Origin: a virus
Length of the DNA: 37,131 bases
Direction: 5' to 3' (one strand)
Virus record (IMG/VR): IMGVR_UViG_3300046794_000284
Location: 1-37,131 of that record
The position numbers and the translations under genes were made by a program. Below are positions 4,730-11,071 of the stretch, piece by piece. The notes beneath the pieces are model-generated. The model had not been told where the DNA came from. It made no database searches and worked only from the letters and a program-made list of their open reading frames with translations. How positions within the stretch are numbered: the stretch's first letter is position 1; the number at the start of each line of letters is the position of its first letter.

Positions 4730-5097
4730 ACGCCCGCATGTCACCCGAAGAGGCCCGCGAAAACAAGCTCTGCCTGTTGATCAACGCCCGCACGCACGCT
4801 ATCGAGCGCGACATCCTCACCGGCCGCGTATCAACCACGGAGGCTGTTTTGGAGCGCATGACGATCGACGGCGACGAAGACGAGGTGCGCGTGATCCTCT
4901 GGACTGCTGTCGTCGGCGGCGCCTGCGCAGTGGGTGCGCACAGCATGTCCGGCGTCGAGGCGGCGATCTACTTCGAGGCCGAGGCGCTGGCCGAGAAGGA
5001 TGTGGCTGACATGGAGCGGCGGCGCATCGACGAAGCGCGGTTCGACCGCATCGAGCGGCGCGTGTACGACCACTTCTTTGCGCGGGAGGCGGTATGA
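4726..5097 (+). CDS. Helical early protein of unknown function
   Basis: 123 residues, overlapping both neighbours by ATGA and so translationally coupled. The N-terminal helix (S-P-E-E-A-R-E-N-K-L-C-L-L) leads to a hydrophobic stretch (I-L-W-T-A-V-V-G-G-A-C-A-V-G-A) that is borderline for a membrane segment. The last third is strongly charged (A-D-M-E-R-R-R-I-D-E-A-R-F-D-R-I-E-R-R). No family is recognised. Confidence 0.65.
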   Translation: MNARMSPEEARENKLCLLINARTHAIERDILTGRVSTTEAVLERMTIDGDEDEVRVILWTAVVGGACAVGAHSMSGVEAAIYFEAEALAEKDVADMERRRIDEARFDRIERRVYDHFFAREAV

Positions 5098-5492
5098 GCA
5101 AGCTGTTCCGCCAACAGGCAGCGTATCTGCGCGCTGAGAACCGCCGGCTCACCGAAGAACTGATGTCGATGCCAGTGTCGGCCAACGACCGCGAACAGGG
5201 GCCGATCGCAGTGTGGCGCTCCAACCGCTTCCTCGTGCAGTTGTTCAATGACAGCGGTGCGCAGCGCATCACGATCAACCGCGCAGCTATCGACGAGACG
5301 ACCGGCCGCTGGTTGGACGGCATTACGTGGGACGAGATCCAGGGCATCAAGCGGAAGATCGGCTTCGGCGACCGCTACGCCGTCGAGTTGTATCCGGCGG
5401 ACGCCGACGTCGTGAACGTAGCGAATATGCGGCACATCTGGCTGGTCGACGCGCCGGCATTCGCATGGCGAAAGAAGCTGGCCGCAGCTTGA
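5094..5492 (+). CDS. DUF7694-like phage protein
   Basis: 132 residues. An N-terminal helix (1-25) is followed by a compact domain with I-A-V-W-R-S, I-T-W-D-E-I-Q-G-I-K, G-F-G-D-R-Y-A-V-E-L-Y-P and V-N-V-A-N-M-R-H-I-W-L-V. I recognise this order as the DUF7694 family, a domain of unknown function found in phage early regions. It starts by ATGA overlap with the previous gene. The following 409 bp have no gene and hold a folded RNA candidate. Confidence 0.75.
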   Translation: MSKLFRQQAAYLRAENRRLTEELMSMPVSANDREQGPIAVWRSNRFLVQLFNDSGAQRITINRAAIDETTGRWLDGITWDEIQGIKRKIGFGDRYAVELYPADADVVNVANMRHIWLVDAPAFAWRKKLAAA

Positions 5493-5602
5493 CCGAAAAG
5501 GAGCGCCCCACCCCTTCAACGTGCGGGCTTGCCAATCTCCGGGTCAAAAAAAGGAGGCCTACTCCGGGCACAGGAGCGCTCGCACTGCGTCAGGTGTCGC
5601 CT

Positions 5603-5762
5603 CACCCTCGTAAGGGGTGACCACACAGAGGCATCATCGGACATGGGTCTTGCGGCGTAGGGACCGTGCCACGGCGGCATGCAGCAGTCGCGAAAAACTC
5701 GAGTAAGTAGCGGTGCGTAAGTCTTGGGGTTCGACTCCCCGCCGATGGTGCCTCTGTGTGGT
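5603..5762 (+). ncRNA. tRNA-like structured RNA candidate closed by a 21-bp helix
   Basis: Bases 5620-5640 pair with 5742-5762 along 21 consecutive positions with a single G-U. The inner seven pairs (5634-5640 with 5742-5748) act as an acceptor stem. A textbook T-arm precedes the 3' strand: stem 5725-5729/5737-5741 and loop TTCGACT (5730-5736) with the invariant TTC-purine-A. Downstream of the 5' strand, GGTC/GACC (5646-5649 with 5662-5665) resembles a D-arm and TGCC/GGCA (5667-5670 with 5676-5679) a middle hairpin, but its loop has five bases and no U33. The tRNA-like body is 116 nt, too long for a canonical tRNA and too short for tmRNA. A further hairpin, CACCC-N7-GGGTG (5603-5619), abuts the 5' end. 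No coding frame explains the segment. Confidence 0.5.
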
Positions 5763-5798
5763 GTCGCATGACCGTAACCGCATGGCTAGTACCCATGC

Positions 5799-5834
5799 CC
5801 CGATATGCCCGGCACGAGTGTGCCAAGGATCGGG
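5799..5834 (+). other. Stable hairpin in the leader of the gene at 5902
   Basis: CCCGAT (5799-5804) pairs with ATCGGG (5829-5834). Inside it, GGCAC-GAGT-GTGCC (5811-5824) forms a perfect five-pair stem with a four-base loop. It lies between the tRNA-like segment and the ribosome binding site of the next gene; with no T-run it is not a terminator. It may be part of the same RNA or a leader element. Confidence 0.45.
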
Positions 5835-5901
5835 AGCCGCGAAAGTCGCCCGCACCACGCCTGGACAACAACCGCCGGCCGCCGGCCAGATAGGAGCAGG
5901 A

Positions 5902-6583: not shown

Positions 6584-7591
6584 ATGAGTAACGCACTTGC
6601 CATCGTTACCGGGGCGATACAGGAGGCGCGCGACGACTTCTCGCGCGTTCTGGTCGACCGTAGTATCAGCTTCGAGCGCGAGTCGGGTTTCGCGATCCAG
6701 CAGCTGCAGAAGAACGAATTCACGCTGAAGGTTGCGATGCAGAGCCGCCAGTCGGTGATCAACGCCGTGACGAACATTGCCGCGATCGGCATCAGCCTGA
6801 ACCCGGCGCGCAAGCAAGCGTACCTGATCCCGCGCAAGGTGAACGGACAGATGGAAATCTGCCTGGACCTGAGCTATATCGGCCTACTTGACCTGGCGGT
6901 CGCGTCTGGATCGATCCTGTGGGGTCAGGCCGAGATCGTTCGCGAGAACGACGGATTCACCTTGAACGGCTTCGACAAGGCCCCGACGCATGTGTTCAAC
7001 CCATTCGGCAAGGACCGCGGCGATATCGTCGGCGCGTATGTGGTCGTCAAAACGCACAGCGGCGACTACCTGACCACGGCGATGTCGATCGAAGACGTGC
7101 ACAGCATCCGTGATCGCTCGGAAGCGTGGAAAGCCTACCTCCAGAAGAAGGTCAGTACCTGCCCTTGGCTGACAGACGAAGGCGAGATGATCAAGAAGAC
7201 CGTCATCAAGCGCGCTTACAAGCTGTGGCCGAAGACCGAGCGCCTGGACGATGCAATGACCCACCTGAACCAGACGAACGAGGAAGGCTTGGCGCAGGAT
7301 CGCCCTGACGACTGGATCGACGTCGCTCCGATGATTGCCGAAGCGCTGCGCACGAAGACCGACGTTGACGCGCTGAACTACTGGAAGGCTCATAACGGCC
7401 AGCTTGCGAATCAACCGGCCGACCACAAGAAGCTCAAGGAAGCGATCGCGACGCACCGCGCAAAGCTGCGGCAGTCGGTCGAGGACGCAAACACGATCGA
7501 AGTCCAGGCTACAGAGCAGAAAGCCGGGCCCGCGCCGGCCATGAGCGCCGAAGAATCTGACTACCAACGCACCGCAGGAGCTGAAGCATGA
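6584..7591 (+). CDS. recT: RecT-family single-strand annealing protein
   Basis: 335 residues from the ATG at 6584, which has GGAG six bases upstream; a TTG at 6572 inside that site is less likely. The RecT core spans about 20-210: L-Q-K-N-E-F-T-L-K-V-A near 45, the N-I-A-A-I-G-I-S-L-N-P motif near 70, A-Y-L-I-P-R, and L-S-Y-I-G-L-L-D-L-A near 100. RecT anneals complementary single strands during recombination or replication of phage DNA. The C-terminal 100 residues are more divergent and helical. It is coupled by ATGA to the exonuclease gene, its usual partner, the two forming a Red/RecET-type pair. Confidence 0.92.
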   Translation: MSNALAIVTGAIQEARDDFSRVLVDRSISFERESGFAIQQLQKNEFTLKVAMQSRQSVINAVTNIAAIGISLNPARKQAYLIPRKVNGQMEICLDLSYIGLLDLAVASGSILWGQAEIVRENDGFTLNGFDKAPTHVFNPFGKDRGDIVGAYVVVKTHSGDYLTTAMSIEDVHSIRDRSEAWKAYLQKKVSTCPWLTDEGEMIKKTVIKRAYKLWPKTERLDDAMTHLNQTNEEGLAQDRPDDWIDVAPMIAEALRTKTDVDALNYWKAHNGQLANQPADHKKLKEAIATHRAKLRQSVEDANTIEVQATEQKAGPAPAMSAEESDYQRTAGAEA

Positions 7592-8265
7592 AATTCATCG
7601 AATGCCCACAAGGGACGCCGGAATGGCTCGCCGCGCGCAGCGGGAAAGTCACCGCCTCGTGTTTCGCAGACGCCATCAGCCGCTGCCAGAAGAAGTCTGG
7701 CGCTCGTAATGTTGGCGACCCGACGGCGGTAGCGGAGCGCTACGCCGCCGACCTCGCGATTGAGCGTATCAGCGGACAGCCTCACGGCGAACCGCCGAAA
7801 GCCTGGATTCTCGAGCGCGGTCACGAAATGGAAGCCGCGGCGCGCATGTACTACGAGGCCCGCACTGGCTCTTTCGTCACGGAAGCCGGTATCTGCCTGA
7901 CCGACGACGAGGTGTTCGGCTACAGCACGGACGGCCTCGTCGATGACGATGGCCTCATTGAGATCAAATCGCCGATCGACAGCAGCAAGATTCTGGCCAT
8001 GTGGCAGACCGGCGACACGTCGGAATACGACCATCAGATGCAGGGAGGGCTTTGGATCAGCGGCCGTAAATGGTGCGACTTCATCATGTACGTGCCTGAC
8101 CTTGCCGTCGTCGGAAAAGACCTGTTCATCAAGCGTATCTACCGCGACGAAGCATTTATCGATGCGATGGTCGAGAAGCTGGCCGCGTTCGACAAACTGG
8201 TCGGGCAGTACGAAGCCGTGCTGCGCAGCGCCGTAGGCCGCGAGCCGATGAGGGAGGCAGCATGA
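7588..8265 (+). CDS. YqaJ/lambda-exonuclease family 5'-3' dsDNA exonuclease
   Basis: 225 residues. The start (Q-G-T-P-E-W-L-A-A-R-S-G-K-V-T-A-S) is the family's conserved N-terminal block, and R-G-H-E-M-E-A-A-A-R follows near 78. The nuclease site is S-T-D115-G then L-I-E125-I-K127-S-P, matching Asp119/Glu129/Lys131 of lambda exonuclease. H-Q-M-Q-G-G-L-W near 149 is the downstream family motif. It makes 3' single-stranded tails for the RecT protein encoded just upstream. Genes overlap by ATGA on both sides, so recT, exonuclease and ninB are made as one translationally coupled set. Confidence 0.92.
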   Translation: MKFIECPQGTPEWLAARSGKVTASCFADAISRCQKKSGARNVGDPTAVAERYAADLAIERISGQPHGEPPKAWILERGHEMEAAARMYYEARTGSFVTEAGICLTDDEVFGYSTDGLVDDDGLIEIKSPIDSSKILAMWQTGDTSEYDHQMQGGLWISGRKWCDFIMYVPDLAVVGKDLFIKRIYRDEAFIDAMVEKLAAFDKLVGQYEAVLRSAVGREPMREAA

Positions 8266-8654
8266 CGAAACGCACCTTCATCCTGGCCCACGACCAGGCC
8301 CGACGTAACGCTGTCCGATTCGTCGCCGAGGCGCCAGTTGGCTACTGCGTCACAGTCTCGGAGCCAACCCGCAACTTGGAGCAGAACGCAGCCATGTGGG
8401 CAATGCTGACCGACGTAAGCGAACAGGTCGTGTGGCACGGCCGACGCCTCGGCCCGGAATCGTGGAAACACATCTTCACCTCGTCGCTCAAGAAGCAAGA
8501 CGTGGTTCCGGGCCTCGATGGCGGCTTCGTGGTCCTCGGCCAGTCGACCAGCACTATGACCAAGCGCGAGATGTCGGATTTGCTGGAACTGATCCAGGCA
8601 TTCGGCGCGCAGCACGACGTGCGGTTCAACCAAAACGAGAGAGAAACAGCATGA
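8262..8654 (+). CDS. ninB: NinB/Orf-like recombination mediator
   Basis: 130 residues. It carries the NinB pattern: R-R-N-A-V-R-F-V near 15, the R-N-L-E-Q-N-A-A-M-W-A-M-L block near 43, G-P-E-S-W-K-H-I-F near 65, G-F-V-V-L-G-Q-S-T-S near 87 and a C-terminal Q-A-F-G-A-Q-H-D-V segment. Lambda NinB (Orf) binds single-stranded DNA and substitutes for RecFOR functions, which fits its place right after RecT and the exonuclease. It overlaps both neighbours by ATGA. Confidence 0.9.
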   Translation: MTKRTFILAHDQARRNAVRFVAEAPVGYCVTVSEPTRNLEQNAAMWAMLTDVSEQVVWHGRRLGPESWKHIFTSSLKKQDVVPGLDGGFVVLGQSTSTMTKREMSDLLELIQAFGAQHDVRFNQNERETA

Positions 8655-10382: not shown

Positions 10383-11071
10383 CAACCCCTACCACACAGC
10401 GCGAGGCGGACGAGCGCGCACTATTTGAAGCATGGTTTGAAGTAGAACACCCGCTGACGCTGCAAGACGATGCTGACATGCGCTTTGAGCGTGCAGGCGA
10501 TGAATACTTCAGTTGCACAGTACAGAACCTATGGGAAGTCTGGCAGGCCCGCGCTGCCCTTGCACAGAGCGAAGCCCCCGCGCTGCCACGCGCAAACGGC
10601 GTTTCGCGCGATGCCGAATGGCCAAAGGCGATGCTCGTATTTTTCGAGCGGGAACTGACCGACGACGAAATGCGCGCCTTGCACGACAAACTCGCCCAGC
10701 GAGCCGCGCCCGAAGCACCTACCATCGTTTTGCACGATAGTGCGTCCTCGCTCATCAAAGCACGGATTGCGGCCACCACGGCAAGCGCGAGCTTGGATGA
10801 CGTGCTCGGCCCGCAACGCTGGTCGAAAGAAGCCGAGATGACGGAATCGTGGCTCGCCCAGCAGGGCGCATCCCATGCAGCGAATGCTGGCGAGGATACC
10901 GAGCGGGACGCAATCGATGCGGCGCGCTATCGCTTTCTTCGAGAAGCTGATCTTGACGCCATTGCTGCCGGCCATTGGCAAACCGGACGAGTTGTTGACG
11001 GCGTGAAGTTTGACGACGCCATCGACGCCGCAATCGCCGCCAGCGCGGCAGAACAGAAAGGACCGCAATGA
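10379..11071 (+). CDS. Mosaic phage protein of unknown function
   Basis: 230 residues from the ATG at 10379, preceded by GGAGAGG and overlapping the methyltransferase stop. Two modules often seen in phage accessory proteins are visible. One is an N-terminal E-R-A-L-F-E-A-W-F ... L-W-E-V-W-Q-A-R-A-A-L domain (about 12-65). The other is a C-terminal D-A-A-R-Y-R-F-L-R-E ... F-D-D-A-I-D-A-A-I domain (about 180-220), related to the Y-R-C-L-R-D module of the gene at 12164. Between them are helical segments with no assignment. It is coupled to the next gene by ATGA. Confidence 0.6.
   Translation: MTTPTTQREADERALFEAWFEVEHPLTLQDDADMRFERAGDEYFSCTVQNLWEVWQARAALAQSEAPALPRANGVSRDAEWPKAMLVFFERELTDDEMRALHDKLAQRAAPEAPTIVLHDSASSLIKARIAATTASASLDDVLGPQRWSKEAEMTESWLAQQGASHAANAGEDTERDAIDAARYRFLREADLDAIAAGHWQTGRVVDGVKFDDAIDAAIAASAAEQKGPQ

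Follow-up and report, generated by a model that had tools for sequence, protein, structure and literature searches.

In riboswitches and leader switches, one strand is common to two mutually exclusive helices just upstream of a gene. The BOX elements of Streptococcus pneumoniae are modular intergenic structured repeats with a variable middle, and occur in multiple copies in bacterial chromosomes. In phages, the linker of the GOLLD RNA sometimes carries transfer RNAs (tRNAs) (PMC12286853), and phage-encoded tRNAs counter tRNA-degrading defences (PMC11555353). Here we describe an RNA in a 37,131-nucleotide (nt) stretch of viral DNA (IMG/VR record IMGVR_UViG_3300046794_000284, positions 1 to 37,131; the whole stretch is referred to below as the window). 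The RNA lies between two genes of the early operon and consists of a constant 3' module, designated M3, and an upstream cassette that is exchanged among phages. An RNA with swappable cassettes carried between early phage genes is previously undescribed, and no description of this RNA was found in the open-licence literature.

The M3 RNA shares some features with each of these systems. Like riboswitches and leader switches, it has a strand common to two exclusive helices just upstream of a gene, but it differs from them in its constant 3' domain, its swapped upstream domain, and its unrelated downstream genes, the last of which also argue against a riboswitch identity. As compared by description, BOX elements are multi-copy, whereas the M3 RNA is single-copy in phages and has non-homologous cassettes. 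GOLLD is likewise a phage noncoding RNA, but GOLLD RNAs are often longer than 800 nt and occur close to tRNA islands, whereas the cassettes of the M3 RNA are mostly not tRNAs, lie in the early operon, and give no GOLLD match by Rfam. The arrangement of T-arm and acceptor in tRNA (RF00005) and transfer-messenger RNA (tmRNA) is common to a subset of the cassettes, but ARAGORN finds neither in the window, and the tRNA model does not match the cassette there. The defence-countering phage tRNAs (PMC11555353) share tRNA shape and phage origin with this cassette; they are, however, functional tRNAs, whereas the cassette has an extended acceptor, a replaced anticodon arm, and no encoded CCA.

Relatives were reached through RecT neighbours. 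The phage loci obtained in this way lie in viral contigs and in bacterial genomes, among them those of Massilia, Duganella, and Noviherbaspirillum. In these RecT-linked loci, window positions 5518-5626 are about 81% conserved and 5756-5852 are 93-96% conserved, and the body between them differs. Two pattern scans of IMG/VR were combined with the earlier loci, for a total of 48 distinct matches; four were set aside, two as apparent chance hits and two as truncated, which left 44. A third, differently built pattern added one locus, apparently a chance match. Loci L131, L179, and L196 were discarded as likely chance pattern matches. A first pattern search had returned mostly ordinary tRNAs where checked.

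M3 is present in 44 non-redundant phage elements. Its consensus consists of GCATGACYGGATCTG, a P2 hairpin with GGCTAGTACC, a variable P3 domain, and GTGAAGGTAGCCCGG, closed by the P1 helix (Table 1). When the variable P3 domain is cut out to give an ungapped alignment of 30 sequences, 84.3% of the P1 and P2 cells are paired, compared with 66.9% in shuffled and 28.8-49.0% in slid controls, and the score for compensatory change in the two helices is 0.520 versus 0.224. In P1, 11 of 11 pairs have changed on both sides; P2 comprises six pairs. Lack of compensatory changes in related phages had been named beforehand, in the first-pass annotation of this DNA, as grounds for abandoning the RNA; such changes were found, and the RNA passed. 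The window has P1, P2, and the GGCTAGTACC loop, and it is matched significantly at 5754-5865 by the M3 covariance model R1 (69 bits, E 2.4e-15), although this score is not independent, the window being among the 30 model sequences. No Rfam 15 family (GOLLD, ROOL, and HEARO included) reaches its gathering threshold on the element, whether in the window or in eight relatives, and permissive Rfam searches of five elements gave chance-level matches only. M3 is listed here as a candidate RNA family absent from Rfam.

The region upstream of M3 in the window is the one originally annotated, as a tRNA-like RNA of the early operon enclosed by an extended helix. Its two arms, A and B, lie 101 nt apart and can pair without interruption over 21 positions, one of them a G-U, as first described, and none of 200 dinucleotide shuffles equals the folding of the 181-nt sequence (z = -3.8). 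The T-arm (TGGGG-TTCGACT-CCCCG, 5725-5741) has a loop of the TTCRANN type and adjoins the acceptor-like 3' strand (5742) in tRNA-type geometry. Its position and the minimum-energy fold, which contains a D-like hairpin (5642-5668) and a middle hairpin (5676-5723), agree with the annotated arms. In this fold the canonical anticodon stem and seven-base loop are replaced by the middle hairpin, which is irregular and 48 nt long. ARAGORN, one of the checks proposed earlier, was run on the window and reported no tRNA or tmRNA. The tRNA covariance model (RF00005, cut-off 29 bits) did not match the window cassette, and a tmRNA with a tag reading frame was not detected in the window by ARAGORN or Rfam. 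The earlier view of a tRNA-like RNA in an extended helix within an early phage operon, fitting no known RNA class, is upheld for the element in the window.

The annotated extent, 5620-5762, is too short; the body within it is an exchangeable cassette, and the constant part lies 3' of it. The 21-bp (base-pair) helix and the T-arm make up just the left half of a longer RNA; the conserved RNA spans about 5602-5860, and its best-conserved part lies outside the annotated interval. The feature is not due to chance, as relatives keep the long helix with different sequences and the T-arm recurs.

Among the relatives, the cassette is hypervariable and about 35-220 nt long. The A:B helix that closes it is 13-23 bp long in nearly all elements, encloses an interior of about 22-218 nt, and beats the best of 528 shuffled controls in 31 of the 44 elements. 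G-U pairs far exceed A-C mismatches in both A:B (58:8) and P1 (55:5), so the gene-sense strand is the RNA. The interiors are highly diverse, with 31 clusters among 42 cassettes by blast clustering. None of the 42 is in reverse orientation, and an invertible cassette between inverted repeats was rejected on this ground. Between L119 and L138, the identity is 92% in the 5' flank, 46% in the cassette (random level 47%), and 96% in M3; between L044 and L173, the corresponding values are 97%, 48%, and 99%. The breakpoints of these swaps are located in the A and B arms. The same cassettes are also found in different contexts (L044 and L142; L128, L138, L148, and L172; L135, L156, and L174), and the cassette of L195, a bacterial genome locus, is related by eye to that of L133. 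Closely related phages thus exchange whole RNA cassettes between conserved flanks, much as they exchange genes.

Some further observations concern the cassettes. A recurring non-tRNA type, GCGGCGGC...GGCACCGG-CCATGTAAGCCGGC..AGCCAAGGA...ATCAAGCCCGGCCCGC, is seen in L133 and L195 and perhaps in L165 and L170, and looks like an RNA family of its own. In L193 (1230-1530), two different cassettes stand in tandem ahead of a single M3, with a short hairpin preceding each cassette. A hairpin of changing sequence (stems TCACCC, GACTGG, GGCTC, GCCTG, and TCCGC) precedes arm A in most of the relatives inspected.

Most cassettes of the relatives are not tRNA-like; in L119, L068, and L057, for example, the body is a structure of another, non-tRNA kind. 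A T-arm of 5 bp with a TTCRANN loop nevertheless occurs upstream of M3 in 10 of the 44 elements, compared with 0.015 expected from base shuffles. The window, L042, L044 (with its duplicate L043), L140, L142, L157, and L167 have the T-arm directly next to the 3' strand of the helix. The tRNA model gives five relatives 39.2, 35.3, 25.1, 24.0, and 21.7 bits, two of these being above the cut-off. ARAGORN calls a tRNA in the body of L044, and in that of L042 only a tRNA with an intron-like insert of 81 nt. The D-arm is of the canonical type in L042 and L140, and in L140 the anticodon arm is replaced by about 70 nt (by eye). Several tRNA origins are likely, because the T-stem and acceptor sequences differ. 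Judged by these sequences, tRNA-like bodies appear to be a recurrent, independently acquired type of cassette, of which the window carries one that is among the most derived. In L160, another tRNA-like body (GATGGTGTAGCTTAGTGGCA...TTCGATTCGTTGCCACCATC), whose anticodon region contains an insert, precedes the cassette that belongs to the M3 at 6916.

The cassette and M3 are linked by strand B, which is complementary either to the upstream arm A or to the downstream strand C, with which it forms P1. In 39 of 40 elements, the A:B and P1 helices share 4-14 nt (median 8); in the window, the last seven nt of B (5756-5762) double as part of P1, and the basal part of A (ACCACAC) resembles C. B varies (GTGTGG, TGATGG, TTGTTGG, TTGTTGTT, and TTGAGTG), and A and C both change along with it. 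Of 50 overlap positions at which A and C are not the same, 38 still allow both to pair with B, a count that is suggestive at most, since the helix finder favours pairing. Three elements, L130, L161, and L176, have no cassette helix, and their unopposed P1 helices are 15, 12, and 25 bp long. This shared strand with three-way covariation suggests, and is probably best read as, a switch.

The sequences directly show the family, its structure and strand, the exchange of cassettes, the tRNA-like cassettes, the position where testable, and the overlapping complementarity of A, B, and C; from them we infer transcription, switching, binding partners of the cassettes, and a counter-defence benefit. The reading that we tentatively prefer, with a probability somewhat short of even, is a phage intercistronic RNA in which the A:B helix would gate the folding of the constant M3 downstream of an exchangeable cassette. 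The RNA would be made within the early transcript. When B pairs with A, the cassette hairpin would be closed and P1 open; when B pairs with C, P1 would be closed and M3 folded. The cassette, which in the window is tRNA-like (T-arm, acceptor-type helix, and D-like arm, with the anticodon domain replaced), would serve as an interchangeable interaction domain, that is, a bait, decoy, or sensor for a host or phage factor, and cassettes would pass from phage to phage by recombination via the conserved flanks and the arms of the helix.

Several points weigh against this reading. The downstream genes are mutually unrelated, which makes it less likely that one specific gene is controlled. With a cassette present, ViennaRNA predicts mostly the full A:B helix and very little P1; some trigger (cleavage, binding, or kinetics, for instance) would thus be needed for a switch. 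The resemblance of A and C could also have been left by insertion or deletion between short direct repeats. The scan patterns themselves required the CTAGTAC loop and ATGAC, so that the conservation of the loop and of J1/2 is partly pattern-made, and L195, which was found through the covariance model, retains the P2 stem but not the loop.

Table 1. Features of the M3 RNA and its flanking genes in the window
Feature	Position	Strand	Remarks
Upstream gene, DUF7694 protein	5094..5492	+	5' bound of intercistronic region
Pre-cassette hairpin TCACCC-TCGTAAG-GGGTGA	5602..5620	+	5' of arm A
Arm A	5620..5640	+	5' strand of 21-bp cassette helix
Cassette interior, tRNA-like	5641..5741	+	D-like hairpin, middle hairpin, T-arm
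Arm B	5742..5762	+	3' strand of cassette helix
M3 conserved module	5756..5860	+	Right half of RNA
M3 P1 helix	5756-5764/5852-5860	+	
M3 P2 helix	5780-5785/5793-5798	+	Loop CTAGTAC, 5786-5792
M3 variable P3 domain	~5800-5833	+	
M3 conserved 3' motif GAAAGTCGCCCG	5841-5852	+	
Strand C (GCACCACGC)	5852..5860	+	Partner of B in P1; competes with A
Downstream open reading frame, 87 amino acids	5902..6165	+	Ribosome-binding site AGGAG; start 41 nt past M3 end; 3' bound of intercistronic region

The element occupies the gap from the stop codon to the ribosome-binding site, and the start codon is usually 37-70 nt past M3. A Pfam search with the 87-amino-acid downstream reading frame gave no match. Homologues of RecT, YqaJ, or NinB were identified in 19 loci, and in every one of these they are encoded 0.8-4.3 kilobases downstream on the same strand; the remaining loci are short or have no detectable homologue. 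In the window, RecT, a YqaJ-type exonuclease, and NinB lie directly downstream (6587-8651), an arrangement that fits short-homology recombination, which could shuffle cassettes. M3 occurs essentially once per phage contig. The exact M3 pattern had no match in two sets of 399 and 369 bacterial genomes, and the M3 covariance model matched 3 of 245 genomes of the family and 0 of 399 of the order, in searches that applied strict filters to few candidates and could have lost weak matches. A genome-wide bacterial repeat was rejected, as both pattern and model are nearly absent from bacterial genomes. At the DNA level, a composite M3 sequence had only short partial matches, none of them real, among the INPHARED phages and PLSDB plasmids.

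Other structured elements are seen in the neighbourhood. Upstream of the pre-cassette hairpin, window positions 5497-5600 form a further conserved and probably structured stretch (a GC-rich hairpin, TTGCC, and CGGGTCA); a related stretch (TTGCCCTG..CTCGGGTCAG..GGGATCTC) is also found at the M3-free sites L039, L040, and L066, and is possibly a separate leader RNA module. Just 3' of M3, a conserved structured intergenic module, CACGCGCTGCGCGTGC...GCGCAGCGG...CCGGACGAGAGTAACCGGCACC, is present in L044 (2740-2880), L043, L052, and L173, and stands alone in L060. The contig of L137, which carries an M3 element, also has an Rfam int-alpA RNA (RF02996) at 10867-10936.

The resemblance of A and C lends itself to a quite different account, which we regard as rather unlikely, in which a unit of A, cassette, B, M3, and C is a small mobile or insertion element that inserts 3' of intergenic phage hairpins, A and C being the direct repeat left by insertion and the structure serving mobility. 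The element-free sites L040 and L041 (hairpin-ACCACAC-CCGAACAAC) have one CCACAC, and the filled sites (L157 and L128) have two; L039, L064, and L066 are likewise without the element, and a hairpin of changing sequence stands before the unit in most elements inspected and before each tandem cassette of L193. Deletion between repeats, however, would yield identical element-free sites, and this account fits poorly with about one copy per phage contig, near-absence from bacterial genomes, constant orientation and early-operon position wherever testable, and cassettes that change while M3 and the flanks stay. An origin as a captured 3' tRNA end from an old attachment site, the alternative offered in the first-pass annotation, was rejected: the body recurs in the sense orientation at a conserved early-operon place, it is replaced by unrelated structured cassettes, and there is no integrase or attachment-site context here. 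That M3 is conserved as a leader peptide in the ATG frame (MTGSGRLVP...) is highly improbable and was likewise rejected. This frame is open for at least 11 codons in all elements, but no upstream Shine-Dalgarno sequence was seen, the tails (11-100 codons) are unconserved, second codon positions vary with third positions fixed, a frameshift breaks the frame in L130, and the motif is lost in L195.

Two further accounts, each somewhat unlikely in our judgement, concern function. The RNA may act in cis in messenger RNA processing or insulation, RNase III cutting the A:B helix and the P1-closed M3 capping the 5' end of the downstream early messenger RNA, with the cassette nearly free to drift. The intercistronic position, with the start codon soon after M3, the near-perfect helices of 13-23 bp, and the P1 strand freed once A is removed are as it predicts; free drift, however, would not yield structured cassettes recurring as families in different phages, and several cassettes are tRNA-like far beyond chance. 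Alternatively, with a similarly limited probability, the RNA may act in trans, its cassettes being decoys, of which the tRNA-like ones would titrate or distract host tRNA-targeting defences and others would suit other factors. Mimicry of tRNA toward EF-Tu, RNase P, or a tRNA-targeting defence, as originally suggested, is possible. Cassettes differ among otherwise similar phages, as an arms race predicts, the tRNA-like bodies are without the usual anticodon arm, and there is precedent for phage tRNAs that counteract retron-Eco7 and PrrC170 (PMC11555353). On the other hand, most cassettes are not tRNA-like, the acceptor is extended with no CCA end, and known phage counter-measures use intact tRNAs.

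If the preferred reading, a cassette gating M3, is carried further, the element would be a natural RNA device with swappable input domains, including tRNA mimics without the usual anticodon arm, upstream of a constant actuator; the state of the cassette, for example whether a host tRNA-targeting defence has cleaved it, would gate the actuator by way of the competing helices early in infection. We hold this extension to be a speculative one with a low probability. The swapping of protein modules by phages is known; here, RNA domains are swapped at precise boundaries, with the adjoining RNA about 96-99% identical. Should the cassettes meet host factors, their repertoire would be a readable record of the RNA-level targets that phages evade or exploit, in which the tRNA-like ones would point to tRNA-targeting defences.
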